From NCBI GenBank assembly GCA_030145205.1, contig JAQYVZ010000029.1, positions 1 through 36,111 of the forward strand: 36,111 nt of DNA. Reading direction: 5' to 3'. The notes under the pieces were generated by a model. It ran no database searches, had not been told where the DNA came from, and worked only from the letters and a program-made list of their open reading frames with translations. Source of the DNA: Desulfuromonadales bacterium. GTDB taxonomy: Bacteria > Desulfobacterota > Desulfuromonadia > Desulfuromonadales > BM103. Both the position numbers and the translations under genes were made by a program. Below are positions 13,980-23,516 of this stretch, piece after piece. Numbering within the stretch: the first letter of the stretch is position 1; each line of letters opens with the position of its first letter.

Positions 13980-14546
13980 TTATTCCTTAACCCGGGTGAC
14001 GTAATCCCCGGTGCGGGTGTCGATCTGGATCAGAGTGCCAGGCTCGACAAAGGACGGGACCTGCAGGGTGTAGCCGGTTTCGACGGTGGCCGGTTTATTG
14101 TTGCCGGCGGCGGTGTCGCCCTTGACCCAGGGGTCGGATTGGGTGACTCGCAGGTTGACGAAGTTCGGCAGAGTGACGCCGATACCGCGTTCACCGAACA
14201 GCAGGATTTTGACTTCCATGTTATCCACCAGGAAGTAGCGGTCATCAGCGAGGGTGTCCGCGTCCAGGACCACCTGCTCATAAGTCTTGTTGTCCATAAA
14301 GACGTAGCCGGTCTCGTCCTGGTAAAGGTACTGCATGTCGCGCTCTTCGAGACTGGCCGGATCGAAACTCTCGCCGGAACGGTAGGTCCGGTCAAACAAA
14401 GCGCCGGTGATCATGTTGCGCAGTTTGCATTTATAAAGAGCCTGGCCCTTGCCCGGCTTGGTGAAATCAAATTGGGCGATGACATGCGGCTCGCCGTCGA
14501 TCATCAGTTTCAGACCTTTTTTTAGGTCAGAACAGCTGTAAGACAT
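13980..14546 (-). CDS. efp: Elongation factor P
   Basis: At 188 residues this is full length, with the three beta-barrel domains of EF-P. The domain I tip reads KPGKGQA with K33 at the position that EpmA/EpmB modify in E. coli (K34). This matches the nearby epmA and KamA-family genes. The C-terminus carries the LPNFVNLRV and DTRTGDYVTRVKE blocks. EF-P rescues ribosomes stalled at polyproline stretches. ATG at 14546 has AAGGAG on the minus strand. The gene is divergent from efpL across about 200 bp. Confidence 0.96.
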   Translation of the reverse strand: MSYSCSDLKKGLKLMIDGEPHVIAQFDFTKPGKGQALYKCKLRNMITGALFDRTYRSGESFDPASLEERDMQYLYQDETGYVFMDNKTYEQVVLDADTLADDRYFLVDNMEVKILLFGERGIGVTLPNFVNLRVTQSDPWVKGDTAAGNNKPATVETGYTLQVPSFVEPGTLIQIDTRTGDYVTRVKE

Positions 14547-14747
14547 GATGCGACTCCTTGTTGTCAGCAGTTCGCCGGTCCTCCGGCAGTGCCTTTATAC
14601 ACAAAAGGCCTGGGGATGTCATCGAAAATCTCCCGATGAAACAGGCCCCTTCGGCCCGGAGAGTTTTTTAAATGGGAGATGAAGCGCTTGAATTTTGTTC
14701 CCGCTCTCCTGTATTCTGTCACACCCTTTTCACACTGGAGAATAGAG

Positions 14748-15308
14748 ATGACATCAAACGATTTGAAACGCGGCCAGATCATTCAGCTTGACCAGGCACC
14801 CTGCGTGGTTCTCGATATCAGCAGCCAGAGCCCTTCGGCGCGCGGTGGCAGTACGCTGATCAAGACCAAGTACCGCAACCTGCTGACCAGCCAGGTTCTT
14901 GAAAAGACCTTCAAAGCAGGAGAGCGGGTCGATGAGGCCGACTTTGAAAAGCGCAAAGGGCAGTTCCTGTATGCCGATGGCGACCAGGGCGTATTCATGG
15001 AACTGGAGAGTTACGAGCAGTTCGAGATCGGTGACGAGCTGTTCGGCGCGGTAAAGGGTTACCTGCTGGATGGGACGGAAGTCGTTCTGGGGCTTTACCA
15101 GGGGCAGGCGATCAGTATCGAGCCGCCGATGACCGTTGAACTGGAAGTGATCGAAACCGACCCGGTGATCAAAAACGCGACAGCCCAGGCTCAGGCTAAG
15201 GATGCTGTGCTCGAAACCGGCCTCAAGATTCAGGTCCCTGCATATCTGGCGACCGGAGAAAAGGTTAAAGTCGATACCCGCGAAGGCCGGTTCGTCTCTC
15301 GCGCCTGA
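14748..15308 (+). CDS. efpL: EF-P-like protein EfpL (YeiP)
   Basis: This 187-residue EF-P paralogue has the domain I tip SPSARGGSTL, with arginine where EF-P has its modifiable lysine. The block is nearly the QSPTARGAATL of E. coli EfpL/YeiP, so it belongs to that subgroup and should act without beta-lysylation. The other domains match the family (SIEPPMTVELEVIETDP, VDTREGRFVSRA). The frame is open from 14679, but the ATG at 14748 after GGAGAATAGAG gives the family's N-terminus. EfpL relieves stalling at a wider set of motifs than polyproline in E. coli; here this is inference. It is divergent from efp, so both may share a regulatory region. Confidence 0.92.
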   Translation: MTSNDLKRGQIIQLDQAPCVVLDISSQSPSARGGSTLIKTKYRNLLTSQVLEKTFKAGERVDEADFEKRKGQFLYADGDQGVFMELESYEQFEIGDELFGAVKGYLLDGTEVVLGLYQGQAISIEPPMTVELEVIETDPVIKNATAQAQAKDAVLETGLKIQVPAYLATGEKVKVDTREGRFVSRA

Positions 15309-15437
15309 TCTCACTCTCTGGTGGTGCATGCCGCAGCCTGACTGAACGATGGCTGTGGCACACCTCCACCTGTCCTGCCCTGTTTCTCCCCTTCTTTCCG
15401 AACCGTGTGCTCGAACCCCTGTGACGTTGTCATTTTT

Positions 15438-15484
15438 TTTGCACTTTTGCAAAAGGGCCATTTCTCTCCTCGCATCTTTGCAAA
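15438..15484. promoter_or_regulatory. Distal pair of putative enhancer sites upstream of the OFA transporter
   Basis: Site 1 (15438-15453) is a perfect TTTGCA-CTTT-TGCAAA palindrome. Site 2 (15469-15484) is CTCGCA-TCTT-TGCAAA, with two mismatches in the left half. Their centres are 31 bp apart, about three helical turns, and lie about 245 and 277 bp upstream of the -24 element. The same pair occurs upstream of the acetate-type transporter. Confidence 0.65.
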
Positions 15485-15608
15485 ACCTCGTTTGACGTGA
15501 GCTGATCTTCTGGTGAAATACAGGTATGTTGCCGGTTTTGCATGTGTTTTTTGCCTGCCCCCACAATTTTTAATGTCCGAAACCATTCAGGTCAGGGTTT
15601 TTTGTTGA

Positions 15609-15624
15609 TTTGCATTTTTGCAAA
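15609..15624. promoter_or_regulatory. Proximal putative enhancer site upstream of the OFA transporter
   Basis: A perfect palindrome TTTGCA-TTTT-TGCAAA (extended to ATTTGCA...TGCAAAT). Its centre is about 105 bp upstream of the -24 GG. An identical 16-bp sequence occurs at 20045-20060. Confidence 0.7.
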
Positions 15625-15720
15625 TAGGGGGTGTTGTCTCCGTCTTGTTATATTTCTGAATGTGTTAGGTAAGATATTGAAATTAAAGGAAAACATTTTT
15701 TTTTGAAAGAATGGCAAGCT

Positions 15721-15736
15721 TGGTACGAGGGTTGTA
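15721..15736 (+). promoter_or_regulatory. Sigma54-like -24/-12 promoter of the OFA transporter
   Basis: TGGTACG-AGGG-TTGTA compares with the consensus TGGCACG-N4-TTGCW. The GG of the -24 element and TTG of the -12 element are present with exact spacing; the -12 GC is GT. Transcription would start near 15748, about 45 bases before the first start codon. The upstream palindromes and the nearby NtrC-type activator support the call. Confidence 0.6.
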
Positions 15737-15793
15737 ATTAACAGTGAGCAAAACGATGGTTGTTTTTCTGTCGATTACCTGGAGGCCAGAGCC

Positions 15794-17248
15794 ATGAGTC
15801 AAAAAACGTCTGACCGTAAAAGCCGCTCAGATAAACCGTTGATCGGAGAGATCAAGGCGAATTGGCCCCTCAGGCTCCAGGTTCAACAAATGATGCAGCG
15901 TGGTTTAGAACATCCCTTAACGATAGCCAAGGAGGCAAGCATGAGTGACGCAAAACAATCTTATCGTAGCGGCTGGATCGTCGCATTGGCCGGAACAGGT
16001 ATCAACCTCGCTCTGGGCATTCTGTACACTTGGAGTATCTTTAAAGGCGCCATCACCGATTCCATCGCAGCGGGTGGGCTTGGTGCTTTCAATTGGGACA
16101 AAGCGTCCATCAATGATCCTTACGCAACGGCATGCTTGGTTTTCGCGGTTGCCATGATCCTTGCCGGCAAGGTTCAGGATAAATTCGGCCCTCGGATCAC
16201 CGCAATCATCGGCGGTCTGCTGACCGGCGCCGGTTTTGTCGTGATTTCCCAGACGACCAGCTACTGGGGCTGGATTGTCGGTTTCGGCGTCATGGCCGGT
16301 ATGGGTATCGGCTTTGGTTATTCGGCGGCAACCCCGCCGGCACTGAAGTGGTTCCCGCCGAAGAAAACCGGTCTGATTGCTGGTATCGTGGTCGCCGGTT
16401 TCGGACTGGCTTCGGTTTACATCGCACCGCTGGCTCAGTACCTGCTGGCCAACTTTGGCCTGCAGCAGTCGATGCTTTACTTCGGTATCGGTTTCACCGC
16501 CATCGTCAGCTTCTTTGCCCTGTTCCTGAAGAATCCGCCGGAAGGCTATATTGCTGATCCTTCCGCGAACACAGCTGCTGCCAAGGCCGCAGTGGTTGAA
16601 GATAAGAAGCCTTCTGAAATCTTGAAAACCGCCAAGTTTTACGTCCTCTGGACCTGCTACTTCATCGGCGCCGGTGCCGGCCTGATGGTTATCGGCAGCG
16701 CCAAGGGCCTGGCCAAGGCCAGCATGGGCGAGATGGCCTTCCTGGTCGTGGCAATCATGGCAGTCGGCAACGCCGGTGGCCGGATCACTGCTGGCGTGGT
16801 GTCCGACAAAATCGGTCGCGCTAACACCCTGGTCATTATGCTGGTTTTCCAGGCCGTCCTGATGTTCCTGGCCATCCCGGTCATCGATGGTGTCTACACC
16901 AGCGCCTTCGCGATGCCTCTGCTGGTCACCTTCATGGTCTTCAACTACGGCACCAACCTGGCCCTGTTCCCCTCCTTCACCAAGGACCTTTGGGGCGCCA
17001 AGAACTTCGGCATGAACTACGGCATTCTCTTCTCCGCCTGGGGCGTTGGAGCTTTCGCCCTGGTGCGTGTCTCCGAGATGCTGCGGGTCAAAACGGGTGG
17101 GTTCACCATGTCCTTCGCCGCTGCCGGCGTGCTGCTGATGGTTGGCGCGATGCTGGCCGGTTCGTTGCGGACCCGCAAGTCTGAGGCTCCGGCTGTTGCC
17201 CCGGCATTCGAGGAAGAAGAACTCGAACTGCAAAAGGCCGTTGATTAA
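15794..17248 (+). CDS. OFA-family MFS transporter (monocarboxylate/oxalate-formate antiporter family)
   Basis: This protein has twelve predicted transmembrane helices and the OFA features LALGILYTWSIF near the start, GKVQDKFGPR (MFS motif A-like) and YSAATPPALKWFPPKKTGLIAG. The family carries small organic anions such as oxalate, formate, lactate or acetate; the substrate cannot be read from sequence. Two in-frame ATGs have strong ribosome sites: 15794 (GGAGG at 15781) and 15941 (AAGGAGG at 15929). The second gives the usual 435-residue transporter; the first adds 49 mostly polar residues. Translation from 15941 is the conventional choice and both may be used. A strong terminator follows. Control probably runs through sigma54 (see upstream sites). 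Confidence 0.88.
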   Translation: MSQKTSDRKSRSDKPLIGEIKANWPLRLQVQQMMQRGLEHPLTIAKEASMSDAKQSYRSGWIVALAGTGINLALGILYTWSIFKGAITDSIAAGGLGAFNWDKASINDPYATACLVFAVAMILAGKVQDKFGPRITAIIGGLLTGAGFVVISQTTSYWGWIVGFGVMAGMGIGFGYSAATPPALKWFPPKKTGLIAGIVVAGFGLASVYIAPLAQYLLANFGLQQSMLYFGIGFTAIVSFFALFLKNPPEGYIADPSANTAAAKAAVVEDKKPSEILKTAKFYVLWTCYFIGAGAGLMVIGSAKGLAKASMGEMAFLVVAIMAVGNAGGRITAGVVSDKIGRANTLVIMLVFQAVLMFLAIPVIDGVYTSAFAMPLLVTFMVFNYGTNLALFPSFTKDLWGAKNFGMNYGILFSAWGVGAFALVRVSEMLRVKTGGFTMSFAAAGVLLMVGAMLAGSLRTRKSEAPAVAPAFEEEELELQKAVD

Positions 17249-17281
17249 GAACGAAAGTTATACAGTTACACCTCTTGTAAT

Positions 17282-17308
17282 GCCCCGCCTTTCGGCGGGG
17301 CTTTTTTT
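17282..17308 (+). terminator. Rho-independent terminator of the OFA transporter gene
   Basis: An 8-bp GC stem (17282-17289 with 17294-17301) with a 4-base loop is followed by seven T residues on the plus strand, 34 bp after the stop codon. Confidence 0.93.
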
Positions 17309-17391
17309 GTTTGTCTGCCGTTTTCAGCATATTTCTCTTCTTGCGCATTCAACTTTCTGACCTGGTTGTCGTTAAAGGTATCAGTTGGTCT

Positions 17392-17643
17392 CTCTCACCC
17401 CAGCCCTCTCCCGCCAGGGGAGAGGGGAGAGGGGGGATAGGGGATAGGGGATAGGCAAGGCTTCGTCATTGTTGCCTCTATTGACGGGAGAGGGGTTAAC
17501 TCTTTCGCGATTAATGCTCCTACCCGAAAGAAGGGAGCAAGGGAATCTATCTTATGAATTGACTATTTATTTAGTAAAATGGAGTGGCAATGACTTCCTC
17601 TCCCCTGGCGGGAGAGGGTTGGGGTGAGGGTTGGGGTGAGGGG
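17392..17643. repeat. Inverted pair of the GC-rich repeat with a short tandem repeat (R4)
   Basis: Unit R4a (17392-17428) and inverted unit R4b (17597-17643) are about 170 bp apart; R4b ends in a doubled TTGGGGTGAGGG. Just after R4a are three tandem copies of the 7-mer GGGGATA (17433-17453). A partial third unit lies at 17475-17496. Together with the flanking sequence this fills most of the gene-free stretch 17309-17726. Confidence 0.75.
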
Positions 17644-17726
17644 GATGCCCTACTCGACTTAACTCTCAAGGCTCAGGGGGCAAAACAGTGCGTGCTGAAA
17701 TGCGATTGCTCTACATAATTTGAAAT

Positions 17727-17841
17727 AAAAAAAACCCCATGATCCAGGAGAGGGGATCATGGGGCAAGGTCTCAGGAGGTATATCGTTTGAAGAAAGCTT
17801 TTGGTCTGTTTACTCCTTTTCGCCTGCCAAACGAAAAGGTT
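17727..17841 (-). ncRNA. Candidate small regulatory RNA, about 115 nt
   Basis: Read on the minus strand, a strong sigma70-like promoter is followed at the expected start point by a hairpin (17815-17839, stem CCTTTTCG/CGAAAAGG). A single-stranded segment follows containing ACCTCCT (17774-17780), complementary to a Shine-Dalgarno, and then an 11-bp terminator stem (17735-17745 with 17754-17764) and eight U residues (17727-17734). No minus-strand reading frame of note lies within. These are the usual parts of a trans-acting sRNA that blocks ribosome binding. It matches no RNA family I recognise. The call rests on structure alone. Confidence 0.6.
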
Positions 17842-17842
17842 G

Positions 17843-17876
17843 ATCTATATATAACTAAATCGGTTATATATGTCAA
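17843..17876 (-). promoter_or_regulatory. Sigma70-like promoter with embedded palindromic operator, driving the candidate sRNA
   Basis: On the minus strand TTGACA (17871-17876) and TATATA (17848-17853) are 17 bp apart. The spacer and -10 contain an inverted repeat, ATATATAAC-TAAATCG-GTTATATAT, placed where a repressor would block polymerase. The half-site GGTTATATAT resembles GGTTATAAAT in the promoter of the zinc-ribbon gene at 18244. Confidence 0.6.
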
Positions 17877-18073
17877 TAAAAAAATCAGCCATGGAAAAAA
17901 AGATTTTCTTTCAATGACTGACAGCGTGAAAAAGAGTCTTCGATGTTACGTTTGGCAGAAACTGCGATACGATGAAACAGGCAGTAGGTCCGTCTGGCGA
18001 CTATTGCCGGAGACTTAATGAATCACCGCGTCCGAGTTGTCCATACGCAGACTGAATAGTTAGGCCGTGAGGC
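17877..18073. other. Gene-free stretch upstream of the sRNA promoter
   Basis: With the flanking parts this completes the 825-bp gap between the OFA transporter and the zinc-ribbon gene. A plus-strand frame from a TTG at 17788 crosses it but is judged spurious. Nothing else is supported here. Confidence 0.4.
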
Positions 18074-18244
18074 TCAGGCGTTCTTCTGTGGTACGTACTG
18101 AGGTGTGTGGATCGTTTCCAGGACCTCATTGTTCAGGTGAAGCAGGGATCCGCAGTCGCTGCATTCGACCAGGTTGCCGCTGAACCCGTCAGCGTGCATG
18201 TCGATTTCGAGATGGTCTTTCTGGTTGCAATACGGGCAATTCAT
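18074..18244 (-). CDS. Small zinc-ribbon protein
   Basis: This 56-residue protein has two CxxC pairs (C3/C6 and C28/C31) spaced as in a zinc ribbon, with a polar, hydrophilic tail. The ATG at 18244 has GGAGG on the minus strand at the right distance, so this start is well supported; a longer frame running to 18613 has no such signal and overlaps the next gene. It has its own promoter with an overlapping operator-like palindrome. The function is unknown; small zinc ribbons often bind nucleic acid or act as adaptor or metal-handling proteins. No terminator follows directly; the next one on this strand is at 17727-17764. Confidence 0.75.
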   Translation of the reverse strand: MNCPYCNQKDHLEIDMHADGFSGNLVECSDCGSLLHLNNEVLETIHTPQYVPQKNA

Positions 18245-18257
18245 AGTTTCCTCCAAG

Positions 18258-18308
18258 GTGGTTAATTTATAACCACTATAGACCCATAAATAACCAAGTA
18301 AAGACATT
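18258..18308 (-). promoter_or_regulatory. Promoter and operator-like palindrome of the zinc-ribbon gene
   Basis: On the minus strand TTTACT and TATAGT (5 of 6 to the -10 consensus) are 16 bp apart. Just downstream is the palindrome GTGGTTA-TAAAT-TAACCAC (18258-18276), which would overlap the transcription start. A further half-site, GGTTATTTAT, lies in the promoter spacer. Confidence 0.5.
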
Positions 18309-18388
18309 TTTACTATTTTTAGTAAAACGCTATTGTATTGCTTTTCGAAGGTGAAATGGCAGGGCTCAACTGGGAGCAACCGTGCCAT

Positions 18389-18418
18389 AAAAAACGGCCG
18401 TTTAAAGCTAAACGGCCG
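18389..18418 (-). terminator. Rho-independent terminator of the 128-residue membrane protein gene
   Basis: A 10-bp stem (18395-18404 with 18409-18418) with a 4-base loop is followed on the minus strand by six T residues. Confidence 0.9.
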
Positions 18419-18447
18419 ACTTGAAAGCTGTTTTGTTCGGGGGTAAA

Positions 18448-18834
18448 CTAAGGTGAAATCGGAACGCTCATTTCCGGAGCGAAATCGGTGTACAGGATGA
18501 AATTTCCCAGTTCCGGGAAACTCATGCCCGCCGGCTTCGCCAGAAAAACAGCGACGACACTGACGATCGTTGCCGCAGCGACCCAGTTCAGAACCAGGGT
18601 ACGCAGCTCCCAATCAGGCTCAGGCTTCAGCTCTTCTTCCTCTTCTTTTTCGCGGCCGGGAAGCTTGGCGGCGATCTGGCGCATGAAACGCCCAGAACAA
18701 AGGAAGATTACAGCAGAAACCGCAAACTGGGGGAGAACCTCGATAGAGACCTGACCGGTGGCGAGCAGGCCGGCATAAAAGGCCAGTACGCCAAGTCCAA
18801 GCAGGGTCATTTGTAAGCTGAGCTTCGTGTTCAT
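18448..18834 (-). CDS. Membrane protein of unknown function
   Basis: This 128-residue protein is not one I recognise. It has two hydrophobic helices at about 7-27 and 30-48, a strongly charged cytoplasmic-type loop with a glutamate run (about 58-76), and a third helix at about 80-98, then a short hydrophobic tail. It lies 85 bp behind the acetate-type transporter on the same strand, but has its own sigma70-like promoter and terminator, so it need not be cotranscribed. A role as accessory to the transporter is possible but unsupported. Confidence 0.7.
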   Translation of the reverse strand: MNTKLSLQMTLLGLGVLAFYAGLLATGQVSIEVLPQFAVSAVIFLCSGRFMRQIAAKLPGREKEEEEELKPEPDWELRTLVLNWVAAATIVSVVAVFLAKPAGMSFPELGNFILYTDFAPEMSVPISP

Positions 18835-18874
18835 CTGTCACATTTCCCAGTTCAAGACACGCCTATTACTCTAG

Positions 18875-18903
18875 AATCTAGCGAGAAACGGCTCCGCTGT
18901 CAA
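18875..18903 (-). promoter_or_regulatory. Sigma70-like promoter of the 128-residue membrane protein gene
   Basis: On the minus strand TTGACA (18898-18903) and TAGATT (18875-18880) are 17 bp apart. The start would be near 18868, about 34 bases before the ATG at 18834. Confidence 0.55.
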
Positions 18904-18919
18904 GAGGGGGCAGTTTAAA

Positions 18920-19684
18920 CTACCGTGTTTTCCCCGTATCGGAAAGCTCCGGCATAACATCTTTGAGGGATTCACGATACAAATGCTGCAGGCCGAGCAG
19001 CAGGCCAGGCAGGCCGCTGGTGATGCCGACCAGGGCAGCAATTTGCATCAAAGCCGGGTTGCTGATTGCGTGGGCAACTGCCAACAGCAGCAAAAAGGCC
19101 ATGAACAGGGAGAAGACGATTCGGCAGACGCGGCTCAGGTCGCCTATGCCCTGTGAGATGATCAGACTGAATAAGCCCCAGACAGCCAGGTAGCCAACCA
19201 TCGGCAAGGTTCCTGGTACAAAACCGTATCCGGCCTGAGGCAGGATGTTGAATGCCAGCATTGAGATCCAGAAGAGACCAATGCCGCTCAGTGCGATGCC
19301 CTGCAATGGATTCTTTTTAAGGGCAGACAGACCGGCAATCACTTGGCATAAGGCGGCGACAAAGACAATCGCGCAGAGAAAGCGGAGATTGATATTCAGT
19401 GCCGGAATTTGGCCCAGTGCGAATACGGTTGCTGCGACACCATAACTGAACAACCCGAGAACGGGTGGTGCCGGGGTTGTGCTGGCTGCAATCGGCAGCT
19501 GGCTGCCAGGAAGTTCATCCTGGCGATTGCGGGCATCCAGTTCGCGATACTTGTTGCACGCGCTGTAATCCGACGAGCAGTAGCGGATAATCATATTGGC
19601 ATCATGCGAAGAGATGTAACCGCAGCCGACATCACAAGCATCTTCATCACGACCGTAGTGGGGACATACAACTGATTTATGCAT
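18920..19684 (-). CDS. Acetate/succinate-type transporter (GPR1/FUN34/YaaH family) with Cys-rich N-terminal domain
   Basis: Of 254 residues, about 72-245 hold six transmembrane helices that match SatP/YaaH in order: the LGLFSYGVAA opening, IAGLSALKKNPLQGIALSGIGLFW, and LAVWGLFSLIIS. Family members take up acetate or succinate with protons. Ahead of this is a soluble region of about 50 residues with five cysteines (C7, C17, C21, C36, C43) and H9 and H27, including CDVGCGYIS and YCSSDYSACNKY, which looks like a metal or Fe-S site. E. coli SatP lacks it. The ATG at 19684 has GGGAGG before it. Upstream lie a hairpin, a sigma54-like promoter and three palindromic sites. Confidence 0.85.
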   Translation of the reverse strand: MHKSVVCPHYGRDEDACDVGCGYISSHDANMIIRYCSSDYSACNKYRELDARNRQDELPGSQLPIAASTTPAPPVLGLFSYGVAATVFALGQIPALNINLRFLCAIVFVAALCQVIAGLSALKKNPLQGIALSGIGLFWISMLAFNILPQAGYGFVPGTLPMVGYLAVWGLFSLIISQGIGDLSRVCRIVFSLFMAFLLLLAVAHAISNPALMQIAALVGITSGLPGLLLGLQHLYRESLKDVMPELSDTGKTR

Positions 19685-19701
19685 TATCGCCTCCCGCCTG
19701 G

Positions 19702-19750
19702 AAGAAAAATTGGGCCCGGCCAGGCTGGCTTATGTCGCCAGGCCGGGCCC
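19702..19750 (-). terminator. Strong hairpin with U-tract in the 5' leader of the acetate-type transporter
   Basis: A perfect 10-bp GC stem (19712-19721 with 19741-19750) is extended inward by TGGC/GCCA (19726-19729 with 19737-19740). On the minus strand it is followed by AATTTTTC. It lies between the sigma54-like promoter and the start codon, so it could act as an attenuator, or end read-through from the regulator gene. Confidence 0.7.
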
Positions 19751-19779
19751 TGCATCGGAGTCACACGCTCTTAAGAAAC

Positions 19780-19795
19780 AGCAAGCTTCATACCA
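19780..19795 (-). promoter_or_regulatory. Sigma54-like -24/-12 promoter of the acetate-type transporter
   Basis: On the minus strand TGGTATG-AAGC-TTGCT fits TGGCACG-N4-TTGCW: the -24 GG and the -12 GC are both present at exact spacing. Transcription would start near 19769. Confidence 0.65.
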
Positions 19796-19891
19796 AAATA
19801 AATATTTTTGAAAGAAGTGGCGGAAGTGTTAAATATCAAGAACTTACGGGAATTTGGAGAATCGTGTGATTTTACGGAGATTTTCCAATAA

Positions 19892-19907
19892 TTCGCAGAA
19901 ATGCAAA
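19892..19907. promoter_or_regulatory. Proximal putative enhancer site of the acetate-type transporter
   Basis: TTCGCA-GAAA-TGCAAA, one mismatch from a perfect palindrome. Its centre is about 105 bp from the -24 GG, the same distance as the proximal site of the OFA transporter. Confidence 0.6.
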
Positions 19908-20012
19908 GAATGCTGACGGGATTGACGTTGCAGGCAGCTCGTACCAGCAAGCCCATCAGTGCAGTTGATTATCCTTATGTAAATACAAAGGGTTACGCAG
20001 GCAATTATAGTT

Positions 20013-20060
20013 TTTGCCAATTTGCAATCGCTCAATCAGGCATTTTTGCATTTTTGCAAA
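20013..20060. promoter_or_regulatory. Distal pair of putative enhancer sites of the acetate-type transporter
   Basis: Site 20013-20028 is TTTGCC-AATT-TGCAAT (two mismatches from consensus). Site 20045-20060 is a perfect TTTGCA-TTTT-TGCAAA, identical to the OFA proximal site. The centres are 32 bp apart and about 227 and 259 bp from the -24 element. Confidence 0.65.
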
Positions 20061-20094
20061 CAGGTGTTGAGAGCCCTTGATTGAGTCAAGGGAG

Positions 20095-21453
20095 CTACTT
20101 CTTTTTGATCCCGTATTTCTTGAGCTTGCGGTAAATTGTGGCCATATTCATCCCCGCTTCAGCCGAGGCTTCCTCTACGTTGCCATTGTGTTTGCTGAGC
20201 AAGTGCGTCAGGTAATCGGTCTCAAAGCCCGCCAGCGCCGAGGAGTAGTCAACCTGGTCGGGGCTGCTGCCGACATGGTCGGTTTCGATAAGCTGAGCCA
20301 GTTCCGGCAGGCCGATATAATTGCCGCTTGAGATCGTCATGGCAGCTTCAATCACATTCAGCAGTTGGCGAATGTTGCCGGGCCAGCTGTATTTTCTGGA
20401 GGCCTCCAGAGCTTCCGGCGTCATCCCCTTGAAGTTGGTTCCGAACTTGTCGTTTTGCAGGCGAATGAAATGATTGATCAACAAAGGGATGTCTTCCTGC
20501 CGTTCGCGCAGGGGAGGGAGATGCAGGTTAATCACGTTGAAGCGGTAGAACAAGTCCTCCCGGAACGTTCCTTTCTCAACTTCGGCCATCAGGTCGGAGT
20601 TGGTCGCAGAGATGAGGCGGACGTCGACTTTGGTCGAGGTGGTTTCACCCAGGCGGCGAAATTCCCGTTCCTGTAAAAAGCGCAGCAAGGTTTTTTGCAT
20701 GTTCATTGGCAGGTTGCCGACTTCATCGAGGAACAGGGTGCCGCCATTCGCTGTTTCCAGTAGCCCCTTGCGATTTTCCGTTGCGCCGGTGAATGCCCCT
20801 TTGCGATAGCCGAACAGCTCACTCTCCAGGATGTTCTCAGGCATGCCGCCGCAATTGAGTGCAACAAATTTGTGATGCTTGCGGGGCGAGTTGTGGTGAA
20901 TGGCCTGGGCGATCAGCTCTTTGCCAGTTCCGGATTCACCTGTGATCAGGGCGGAGGTGTCGCGAACGGCAACCTTGGCGACCCGTTCGAGCAAGCGTTT
21001 GATCACAGCCGAGGTGCCGATGATACTGTCGAACTGAAATTTGCCGGAGAGCTCTTCCTTCAGCTCACGATTCTCTTCGGTCAACTCGTGATGCGTCAAG
21101 GCGTTTTTAACCCGGAACAGCAGCTCTTCCGGCTCAAAGGGCTTGGTCAACATGTCGTAGGCGCCTTGGCGGAGGGCCTGGATCGACATTTCGACTGTCG
21201 CGTATGCCGTGATCATGATGACCGGGACTTCCGGGTCACGGTTGCGGATATGCTTGAGAACCTCGAGGCCATCCATTTCCGGCATTTTTATGTCGGTGAT
21301 GACCAAATCGTAATCGTCGGCGGAAAATTCCGCCACGGCCTGAACGGGGTTGGTGTGCGCCTTGACTTGGTAACCTTGGTCTTTGAGTACGGCTTCCATC
21401 ATGCGACACAGCCCGACCTCGTTATCAATTAACAGGATACGGCTGTCGTTCAT
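20095..21453 (-). CDS. Sigma54-dependent response regulator, NtrC family
   Basis: This 452-residue regulator has three domains in order: a receiver (about 4-118) with phospho-acceptor D54 and the switch lysine K104; an AAA+ domain (about 142-370) with Walker A GESGTGK at 172-178, the sigma54-contact loop GAFTGA at 219-224 and Walker B FLDEVG at 241-246; and a Fis-type helix-turn-helix at about 424-448 (VEEASAEAGMNMATIYRKLKKYGI). It should open sigma54 promoters when phosphorylated by the kinase encoded just upstream. The ATG at 21453 follows GGGAGG and overlaps the kinase stop by one base, so the two are coupled. Its closest likely targets are the two transporter genes either side of 17-20 kb. 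Confidence 0.95.
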   Translation of the reverse strand: MNDSRILLIDNEVGLCRMMEAVLKDQGYQVKAHTNPVQAVAEFSADDYDLVITDIKMPEMDGLEVLKHIRNRDPEVPVIMITAYATVEMSIQALRQGAYDMLTKPFEPEELLFRVKNALTHHELTEENRELKEELSGKFQFDSIIGTSAVIKRLLERVAKVAVRDTSALITGESGTGKELIAQAIHHNSPRKHHKFVALNCGGMPENILESELFGYRKGAFTGATENRKGLLETANGGTLFLDEVGNLPMNMQKTLLRFLQEREFRRLGETTSTKVDVRLISATNSDLMAEVEKGTFREDLFYRFNVINLHLPPLRERQEDIPLLINHFIRLQNDKFGTNFKGMTPEALEASRKYSWPGNIRQLLNVIEAAMTISSGNYIGLPELAQLIETDHVGSSPDQVDYSSALAGFETDYLTHLLSKHNGNVEEASAEAGMNMATIYRKLKKYGIKKK

Positions 21454-23417
21454 CAGATTTCCTCCCTGACTAGAGGTAGGCAAATCGTGACCGTCGTGCC
21501 TTTGCCCAATTCACTGTCAATGCTGATATTCCCCTGGTGTTGTTCAATAATCTGCTTGGTGATTGCCAACCCCAGGCCGGTTCCTCTTTCACGGGTGGTG
21601 TAGAAGGGCTCGAAAATCCTTCCCAGGTCCTCTTCTTCGATACCGTTGCCTGAATCGCGGAAGTCAATGGCCAGGAAGGTGTCCTGCGCCCGGGTCGTGA
21701 CCGTCAGGGTGCCGCCGTTCGGCATGGCGGCACCGGCATTCAGGACAACATTGATTGCTACCTGCCGGATCTGATCGCCGTCCGCAGGAAGCTTGGCTGC
21801 CGGGGCCTGGTAATCTCGGATGATCTCGACACCATGCAGGTCGGTGTGGTTGGCGGCAAAGTCGAGAATCTGGTCCAGCAGCTGATGGAGGTTGGTCTCC
21901 GTGAACTTCGGCTGTGGCGTGCGGGCGTAATTCAGCAGATCCTGGACAATTTTCTTGCAGCGCTTGCTTTCCCGTTTGATCTCGTGAATGTACGTAAAGT
22001 TCGGATCCTCAGGGTCGAGTTTTTTCTCGAGGTAGCCGGCATACCCCATGATGACCCCGAGCGGGTTGTTGATTTCATGGGCGACGCCAGACGACAGGAC
22101 GCCAAGTGAGGCCATTTTCCCCTGCTGGGCAAGGTTCGTTTCCAGTTCGCGGTTGCGCCGCAGGACCCGGGTCAGGCGATTGAAGGTCGTTGCCAGCTCG
22201 CCGAGTTCATCTCGGCTCTCGACCTGCATCTGTCGTTTGAACTGCCCCGCCTTGATGTCGCGGATCACTTCCGTCATATGCTTGATCGGGTCGCTGAGGA
22301 TTTTGGCGGCCAGAAATACCAGGAAAACCGAAATCAGGCCGGCCGCCAGAGAAATGACCGTCAAACTCGACATGATCCTGCCTTTGATCAGAGTCGCTTC
22401 CTGATAGAATTCATCTTCGTAAGAACCGACGGCGATGATCCAGTCCCAAGGCTGGTAATAAAGATAACGGACGATTTTGCGGCGGGGATTTTTGTCCCCC
22501 GGGTTCTGCCAGGGGTAGCGGATCCAGCCCTCGCGTTCTCTGCACATCTGCTGGATAAACGGCGTGCCGATCGAATCCCGTGCCGCGAAGATGTTGTCTC
22601 CTTCGCTTTCCGGATGGATGGTCAGCTTTCCCTTGCGATCCATGCAGTAGATGTAGCCGGTCTGTCCGACCTTTTTCGCCTTGATCCTCTCCTTCAGCTC
22701 AGTAAACGCCTTCTGCTCGGCGACCGGATCCTTATAGGTTTCTTCCAGGTAGCCGCCTGCAGCGATGATCCAGTCCCAGGGTTCGAAATATTTATAGACG
22801 ACCATCTTCTGACGGGGCCGCGCGTCGCCAAGGGCTTCGTTGCGCCAGGGGTAGACGATGGTCAGGGTTTCTCCCGGAGCAGAGTTTCTGGCCGCTTCGC
22901 TCATGCTGCGAATAAAGTAGCGGCCGTTTTCGTCCTGCCTGTCATAGACATTCTCGCCTTCGCTGGCGATATGTACGGCCAGGTCTCCCTTGGAGGTCAT
23001 GGCGTAGAGATAACCGGATTCGCCAACTTGAACGATTTTCATAGCGCGGCGCACTGCATCCTGAGCACTCTCCAGATCGATTTTCCCTGCCAGGATTTGC
23101 TGCTGTTGCGCGTTCACCATGCCGCAGGTTAACAGCACCAGGGATTCGAGGTCTTCCCGAACCGTTAATTTCTTGTCTTCCTGGTAGACCTGAAACTGGC
23201 GATGGTGGGAATCGAGCAGATCGACGGTGAAGCCGGCGAGATGGTCCAGGTCATCCATGCTGGTCTGGGTGATTCCCAGGTGTGCCTGCCGGTAGCCGAT
23301 CCAGCCGACCACGGTGCCGACCACAAAAATCGGCACCAGGACCAGTGGCAGGACGACCACCACCATCTTCCAGCGGATATTCAGTTTGTTGACAAATGTG
23401 AAAAGATGCCGACCCAT
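21453..23417 (-). CDS. Membrane histidine kinase with two extracytoplasmic Cache domains
   Basis: This kinase has 654 residues. Helices at about 18-41 and 350-373 flank a large periplasmic region with two similar Cache_2-type units: GYLYAMTSKGDLAVH, YPW and FEPWDWIIAAGGY (about 135-223), then GYIYCMDRKGKLTIHPESEG, YPW and YQPWDWIIAVGSY (about 254-333). A HAMP linker (about 365-420), a HisKA domain with H447 in AHEINNP, and an ATPase domain with GNGIEEE and GTGLGLAI follow. Cache_2 domains commonly bind small carboxylates. The ATG at 23417 gives the best N-terminus; a start at 23450 is also open. It is cotranscribed with the NtrC-type regulator. Confidence 0.93.
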   Translation of the reverse strand: MGRHLFTFVNKLNIRWKMVVVVLPLVLVPIFVVGTVVGWIGYRQAHLGITQTSMDDLDHLAGFTVDLLDSHHRQFQVYQEDKKLTVREDLESLVLLTCGMVNAQQQQILAGKIDLESAQDAVRRAMKIVQVGESGYLYAMTSKGDLAVHIASEGENVYDRQDENGRYFIRSMSEAARNSAPGETLTIVYPWRNEALGDARPRQKMVVYKYFEPWDWIIAAGGYLEETYKDPVAEQKAFTELKERIKAKKVGQTGYIYCMDRKGKLTIHPESEGDNIFAARDSIGTPFIQQMCREREGWIRYPWQNPGDKNPRRKIVRYLYYQPWDWIIAVGSYEDEFYQEATLIKGRIMSSLTVISLAAGLISVFLVFLAAKILSDPIKHMTEVIRDIKAGQFKRQMQVESRDELGELATTFNRLTRVLRRNRELETNLAQQGKMASLGVLSSGVAHEINNPLGVIMGYAGYLEKKLDPEDPNFTYIHEIKRESKRCKKIVQDLLNYARTPQPKFTETNLHQLLDQILDFAANHTDLHGVEIIRDYQAPAAKLPADGDQIRQVAINVVLNAGAAMPNGGTLTVTTRAQDTFLAIDFRDSGNGIEEEDLGRIFEPFYTTRERGTGLGLAITKQIIEQHQGNISIDSELGKGTTVTICLPLVREEI

Positions 23418-23516
23418 TGTTTTCCCTACCTGTTTAAAAAAAATCAACAAATTATGCTGGATATGGAGAGAAAAAGCAAGGTGGCAAAACGGCTTTTTAT
23501 TCGTAGGGTAAGGTGG

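Follow-up and report, generated by a model that had tools for sequence, protein, structure and literature searches.

A double-Cache kinase and an NtrC-type regulator very probably control two monocarboxylate transporter genes through a shared palindrome in Desulfuromonadales

Introduction

A 36,111-nucleotide contig of a Desulfuromonadales bacterium (JAQYVZ010000029.1, assembly GCA_030145205.1; this whole stretch is the window) encodes a sensor histidine kinase and an NtrC-type response regulator next to two monocarboxylate transporters, one a lactate-type member of the major facilitator superfamily (MFS) and the other of the acetate-type SatP family. The sensor-activator pair very probably switches on both neighbouring transporter genes through a shared DNA signature, the palindrome TTTGCA-N4-TGCAAA placed upstream of sigma54-type promoter elements (Table 1). 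We hold it highly probable that this is an NtrC-type two-component regulon in which the kinase senses C2/C3 acids and the regulator binds the palindromes and activates transcription via sigma54. Computation gave the sites and how specific they are, how they co-occur with the kinase and how far they lie from sigma54-like elements, as well as the protein families and pocket residues; from these we infer regulator binding, the ligand sensed, the activating effect and the direction of import, with knowledge of the NtrC family as the basis for binding, phosphotransfer and activation. A large group of relatives shares this arrangement of regulator, palindrome and transporter. In the Desulfuromonadia, to which many metal- and electrode-respiring organisms belong, acetate and lactate serve as important electron donors. 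The promoters with their sites, the sensor pocket and the targets are defined tightly enough that a single protein and a single DNA fragment would suffice for a test. For Geobacter, acetate has been described as an important electron donor (PMC2725144).

Palindromes upstream of the two transporter genes

A scan of the window recovered six sites, three per transporter promoter, at the positions that an earlier note on this DNA had assigned to them. As that note had held, three are perfect palindromes (15438, 15609 and 20045), and two of these, 15609 and 20045, are an identical 16-mer, TTTGCATTTTTGCAAA. Its count of three such sites per promoter is liberal as regards the middle sites, 15469 and 20013, which carry two mismatches each; the other four have at most one. 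The middle MFS site has a single mismatch in loci L106, L110, L116 and L118, where it lies at -264 to -267, while the middle SatP site of the two closest relatives lies at -257 compared to -247 in the window.

Against a baseline of 60 dinucleotide shuffles of the window, we observed 3 exact sites (mean 0.017), 4 with at most one mismatch (0.083) and 7 with at most two (1.63), six of these seven falling inside the two intergenic regions. When those regions were themselves shuffled 2000 times, the observed exact count was reached in no run for 15309-15793 and in 0.05% of runs for 19685-20094. A search of the assembly (3,721,735 bases, 317 contigs), which the earlier note had proposed, returned three exact copies, all in the two intergenic regions, and no copy of a reversed-pattern control. 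That the palindromes merely arise from the composition of AT-rich intergenic DNA is hardly credible: a scan allowing three mismatches is only mildly enriched (24 versus 15.8 expected), which speaks in its favour, whereas the exact and two-mismatch counts, the intergenic shuffles, the assembly-wide count, the reversed-pattern control and the similar site positions in relatives all argue against it. A chance origin was rejected.

Sigma54-type elements in the window and in relatives

In both window promoters a gap of 96 bp separates the proximal palindrome from the -24/-12 element. The layout described in the earlier note stands, its distances of 105 and 227-277 bp being about 10 bp longer than edge-to-edge values, a matter of definition. 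The SatP element, TGGTATGAAGCTTGCT, has the canonical GG-N10-GC of sigma54 promoters. A plain consensus scan over the whole window showed no enrichment (53 matches versus 64 expected) and was uninformative; in the promoter scans, sigma54 elements were scored with weights drawn from general background on such promoters. This is the arrangement of a classical sigma54 promoter driven by an enhancer.

The window's family comprises 22 genomes, three of them without an exact palindrome, and the analysis covered every one of the 55 exact palindromes. The earlier note had named a lack of palindrome enrichment near such promoters in relatives as grounds for refuting its proposal, and the palindromes proved to be enriched there: 49 of the 55 have a sigma54-type element scoring at least 21 at 90-306 bp, compared to 345 of 3892 random positions. 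The six without such an element are in genomes G002 (two), G005, G011, G018 and G020 (contig edge); one of the G002 palindromes is also at a contig edge, and its element scored 20.5 in the promoter scan.

Genes and sites were mapped in 60 stretches and 80 titled loci, the first 45 of the latter (at least 51% identity) being taken as orthologs. A site with at most one mismatch was present in 67 SatP-type and 33 MFS upstream regions, which merged to 86 distinct promoters, as those preceding fusions of a Cys-rich module (see below) to MFS proteins, or short module open reading frames, can count in both lists. A recount with misses gave 67 of 75 SatP-type and 32 of 38 MFS upstream regions, three short MFS regions being skipped. 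Part of these loci had been fetched because they bear the palindrome, and a count made to answer this ascertainment, confined to loci fetched by their kinase, gave 54 of 60 for SatP-type (or Cys-module) genes and 21 of 27 for MFS genes, where promoters ahead of module-MFS fusions can again fall under both headings. Comparison regions in the same loci gave 0 of 78 for the response regulator gene, 4 of 78 for the kinase gene and 4 of 20 for elongation-factor-P-type genes, the last cases probably being small-RNA promoters of the kind seen in genus g13 (see below). The regions without such a site (8 of 75 SatP-type, 6 of 38 MFS) include L150, L152 and L156, whose best sites have two mismatches. 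L156 has two copies of TTCGCA-N4-TGCGAA, and copies of this variant occupy the same place in both L156 and L157, which are more distant titled loci.

Operators in relatives consist of one to four sites about 100-310 bp upstream. The sigma54 score exceeded that of the reverse strand in 86 of 86 distinct promoters, a figure conditional on a palindrome because the promoters were selected for having one, and it reached at least 22 in 80 of them versus 0 controls. The site profile, TTYGCA-N4-TGCRAA, was built from 173 sites with at most one mismatch, so that its sharpness is partly due to selection. Helical phasing of the operator sites is suggestive only. With promoter weighting, all sites together gave a best period of 11.3 bp relative to -12, which is not significant when distinct positions are counted once (926 of 2000 random sets as good). 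Taken alone, the proximal sites (n = 71) gather around -127, -116 and -105, and none of 3000 random sets equalled their 11.7-bp period; the promoters are related, however, and for the 19 distinct positions 216 of 3000 random sets were as good.

Co-occurrence with the kinase across the order

The exact palindrome occurs in 91 of 136 genomes of the order, the reversed-pattern control in 8 of 136. Kinase orthologs were sought in 98 order genomes, where they stood clearly apart (E < 1e-150) from paralogs (E > 1e-59), and were present in 74, to which the regulon prediction extends. The exact palindrome is found in 68 of these 74 genomes and in 6 of the 24 lacking the kinase (Fisher p = 5.6e-10), the 24 including G036, which has a contig-edge kinase fragment. 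Among titled orthologs, Citrifermentans bremense (L125) and Geobacter sp. OR-1 (L126) have exact sites and Desulfuromusa kysingii (L159) has one-mismatch sites; the examined stretch of Oryzomonas japonica (L128) has no site of at most one mismatch.

The palindrome could instead be the operator of a different regulator, either another enhancer-binding protein or a repressor, with the kinase-regulator pair a mere neighbour. Kinases of this general type are numerous in these genomes, so other such regulators exist, and the exact palindrome in six kinase-less genomes would be accounted for; yet palindrome presence follows the kinase, and sites stand not only beside the regulator but also at transporters distant from the kinase or on another contig (L070, L104, L105, L106, L110) and, in the four cases given above, upstream of the kinase gene itself. 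Repressor sites would normally overlap the promoter, whereas these lie well upstream. We regard a different regulator as very unlikely, and control by the neighbouring pair as the better account.

The regulator and the kinase sensor

The regulator scores above cutoff for Pfam PF00072, PF00158 and PF02954 and has GAFTGA in the alignment of orthologs, as expected of the NtrC type; both the GAFTGA and the Fis-type helix-turn-helix had been noticed earlier, as had the double-Cache nature of the kinase, which Pfam assigns to dCache_2. The helix-turn-helix stretch MNMATIYRKLKKY is nearly invariant in 16 orthologs, and the palindrome is likewise nearly invariant over 173 sites with at most one mismatch. 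Judging by the alignment, the true start of the regulator gene is probably an internal ATG near 21447.

In the structural model of the sensor, the secondary structure repeats twice, as expected for two tandem PAS-like domains. Fold searches with the whole kinase model returned kinase cores for the most part and were hardly a test of the sensor. The two halves have sequence matches among Cache chemoreceptor domains: 4exo for the first, 4k08 (which we take to be the acetate-bound structure of Adeh_3718) and 5g4y for the second. In the available texts, an acetate-bound structure is described for the Adeh_3718 Cache domain (PMC3831638), 5g4z is propionate-bound PscD, and the PscD residues hydrogen-bonding the carboxylate are Tyr90, His103, Tyr143 and Lys156 (PMC5062169). 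In alignments to 4k08 and 5g4y, these four correspond to Y266, H279, Y312 and K325 of the second half; by our reading, their first-half counterparts would be Y147, H160, Y200 and K215, with Y200 facing a Phe in the 4exo alignment. None of the eight residues varies among 16 kinases, that of the window and 15 relatives with 56-81% identity to it. One of the sandwiching Trp residues is kept in both halves (W202 and W314), while the other (PscD Trp92) is Tyr in both. The C2/C3-carboxylate set of Tyr, His, Tyr and Lys is recognised in the kinase by sequence alignment only. PscD and Adeh_3718 differ from it in being single-Cache chemoreceptors, whereas two tandem copies are present here.

The transporters and a Cys-rich module

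Both transporter names proposed in the earlier note (OFA and acetate-type) are borne out by NCBIfam scores above cutoff. The MFS protein scores 404.7 bits for the SfMCT L-lactate transporter (NF049980, cutoff 320), and the SatP-type protein 77.4 bits for AceTr_1 (NF038013, cutoff 50) and 24.4 for Pfam PF01184, just below the cutoff of 25. Family matches are to SfMCT (PDB 6g9x) and the SatP channel (5zug, 5ys3). The predicted SatP model aligns to SatP structures from residue 69 (5ys3: Z 21.1, root-mean-square deviation 3.0, 172 residues), and in contrast to these the window protein carries an additional N-terminal Cys-rich module. The gene for a TctB-like protein often adjoins the SatP or MFS gene in relatives; it may share the SatP transcript in the window, and its product could be a transporter partner.

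The Cys-rich module, previously unnamed, takes three forms: it heads SatP-type proteins, is fused to MFS proteins in other families, or stands alone as the first open reading frame, of 62-70 residues, behind the same promoter; the MFS protein of the window lacks it. Its four Cys are invariant in 28 aligned members, and of 71 distinct examples 66 have a palindrome with at most one mismatch in the upstream stretch searched, some of these loci having been fetched because of their palindrome. It occurs in 19 of 297 genomes of a phylum sample. Four members scanned matched no Pfam or NCBIfam model, the one Pfam match being below cutoff (E 0.18). Structure prediction was of low confidence (block means of 44-66 in pLDDT, the predicted local distance difference test), and we therefore claim no fold.

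The regulon could be real and yet answer to another signal, for example a dicarboxylate or, through the Cys-rich module, a redox state, or its transporters could export fermentation products. Such a reading, which we think unlikely, would sit well with the succinate that SatP relatives also carry according to PDB titles, with the module at the head of many targets, with Tyr in place of PscD Trp92 in both sensor halves, and with the crediting of G. sulfurreducens acetate uptake to other symporters (PMC7894505). Set against it are the hydrogen-bonding residues of the C2/C3 pocket, four of four of which are invariant in both halves, and the score of the MFS protein above the cutoff of a named L-lactate transporter.

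Proposed mechanism and comparison with known systems

In the monocarboxylate regulon that we favour, the kinase would sense periplasmic C2/C3 monocarboxylates (acetate, lactate, pyruvate or propionate) through its two tandem Cache pockets and phosphorylate the NtrC-type regulator encoded after it. Regulator dimers would then bind TTYGCA-N4-TGCRAA palindromes, a proximal site (in the window, 96 bp ahead of the -24/-12 element) together with a distal site or pair, and the regulator would loop to sigma54-RNA polymerase. The lactate-type MFS and acetate-type SatP transporters would thereby be switched on by their own substrate class.

On our best reading, the regulon would work like LurSR of Desulfovibrio (DVU3023), with a different operator and kinase. 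LurSR is likewise a sigma54-dependent two-component regulator of lactate uptake genes, and it too uses 16-bp sites, three of them ahead of por, at -389, -350 and -250 relative to the start codon and followed by a sigma54 promoter (PMC6456213). In contrast, the available text gives a LurSR operator of the GTCCRCTTTTTCAGAC type, which the sites here do not match, a hybrid kinase with three PAS domains, and targets that include the lactate oxidation operon, unlike here (PMC6456213); Pfam models in the present kinase are Cache, HAMP, HisKA and HATPase_c only. The nearest NCBIfam relatives of the pair are AtoC and AtoS of E. coli, although the two scores, 447.6 and 233.4 bits, are far below the curated equivalog cutoffs of 714 and 646 bits. 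AtoSC is likewise sigma54-dependent, serves short-chain fatty-acid use and has TGCA half-sites, but the AtoC site spaces these as TGCA-N6-TGCA (GCTATGCAGAAATTTGCACA), and atoDAEB is under its control (PMC3118216). In a 2015 study, as far as its text is available, sigma54-dependent transcription of lactate genes was undescribed outside the Desulfovibrionales (PMC4641369). We found no description of this palindrome or of the kinase-regulator pair, nor of a regulator sensing acetate or lactate in the Desulfuromonadia, in the available text of the open-licence PMC literature (without supplementary files).

Several observations weigh against the proposed regulon, in addition to the two selection effects named above and the kinase-less genomes with exact palindromes. 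The window MFS element, TGGTACGAGGGTTGTA, is GG-N10-GT, whereas GC stands at -12 in 30 of 33 MFS promoters (the exceptions being the window, L005 and L091). Six of the 74 kinase-bearing genomes lack an exact palindrome; of the five looked at further (all but G128), three (G008, G125, G039) have one-mismatch sites in place, while G127 has no site with at most two mismatches in the stretch fetched, nor has G032, whose stretch stops at a contig edge. In G. sulfurreducens, GSU2490, a possible ortholog of the MFS target that is annotated as an oxalate-formate antiporter, is up on RpoN over-expression and has a computationally predicted RpoN promoter, but primer extension gave an RpoD start only (PMC2725144). 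Four sodium/solute symporters of a different family are credited with acetate uptake in that species (PMC7894505), so the principal route need not run through SatP-type proteins.

Table 1. Positions of features in the window and, where a locus is named, in relatives
Feature	Position	Strand	Details
MFS target, distal palindrome	15438..15453	.	exact; -297 from -12 C
MFS target, middle palindrome	15469..15484	.	2 mismatches; -266 by coordinates
MFS target, proximal palindrome	15609..15624	.	exact; -126 from -12 C
MFS promoter, -24/-12 element	15721..15736	+	TGGTACGAGGGTTGTA; GT instead of GC at -12
OFA/SfMCT-type MFS monocarboxylate (L-lactate) transporter	15794..17248	+	target 1
TctB-like protein	18448..18834	-	128 residues; Pfam TctB 20.6 bits, under cutoff 29.1
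SatP/AceTr_1-type acetate transporter	18920..19684	-	target 2; 254 residues; N-terminal Cys-rich module
Cys-rich module	19496..19684	-	about 55 residues; N-terminus of SatP-type protein
SatP promoter, -24/-12 element	19780..19795	-	TGGTATGAAGCTTGCT; canonical
SatP target, proximal palindrome	19892..19907	.	1 mismatch; -126 from -12 C
SatP target, middle palindrome	20013..20028	.	weak, 2 mismatches; -247 by coordinates
SatP target, distal palindrome	20045..20060	.	exact; -279 from -12 C
NtrC-type response regulator	20095..21483	-	REC, AAA+ with GAFTGA, Fis-type helix-turn-helix
Sensor histidine kinase	21453..23450	-	dCache_2 sensor (two tandem sCache_2-like halves), HAMP, HisKA, HATPase (Pfam)
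Stand-alone Cys-rich modules	L154 13912-14100; L161 15999-16187; L125 13809-14003
Alpha/beta-hydrolase targets	L109 1080-1940; L112 4182-5042; L114 4138-4998; L107 2986-3798		L114 by sequence likeness only
Candidate small RNA	L100 4914-5104	+
Candidate small RNA	L101 7011-7201	-
Candidate small RNA	L026 1187-1377	-
Candidate small RNA	L029 1186-1377	-
Candidate small RNA	L099 6903-7088	-
Candidate small RNA	L160 11115-11321	+

Probable further targets and neighbouring features

The regulon is compact, as the earlier note had it, within the window (two promoters) but less so in relatives, which add an alpha/beta-hydrolase gene, sometimes the kinase gene and, in a single genus, what is probably a small RNA. 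In the window's family, the hydrolase gene is preceded by a site pair 32 bp apart with a sigma54 element at the usual distance. Palindrome and sigma54 arrangements also stand ahead of other genes (L103 3083-3776, L115 4058-4809 and L117 3885-4100). The four palindromes directly upstream of a kinase gene (L124 2910, L125 9870, L154 9956 and L076 11641) make autoregulation possible in those loci.

Genus g13 (family f6) has a conserved stretch of about 190 nucleotides behind two palindromes, at about -227 and -129, and a sigma54 element. The stretch, which has a C-rich loop and an intrinsic terminator at its end, is a candidate small RNA under sigma54 control. Its core 19-mer occurs in 7 of 136 order genomes, all of genus g13, and is absent from the window's assembly. 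RNAalifold on six sequences, five of genus g13 and one titled metagenome-assembled genome (L160), gave 49 pairs, 12 of which show a compensatory change in at least one sequence. The candidate reaches the gathering score of no Rfam family (RNAI 31.6 and 26.4 versus 47), and no structured RNA family reached its gathering threshold in the window. As a tentative idea that we would not rank as probable, the Cys-rich module might gate or assemble transporters by metal or redox state, while the g13 regulator might also drive this small RNA with its exposed C-rich loop. If true, acid sensing in this genus would set both uptake and post-transcriptional control, and the regulon would mark a new type of control over transporters.

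Two elongation-factor-P-type genes lie beside the MFS gene on opposite strands, at 13980-14546 (-) and 14679-15308 (+); only the latter was scanned against families, the former being named by its look. Inspection by eye showed a G+C-rich CCCTCTCCCGCCAGGGGAGAG-type repeat in inverted copies at about 17390-17640, in the DNA that separates the two target operons.

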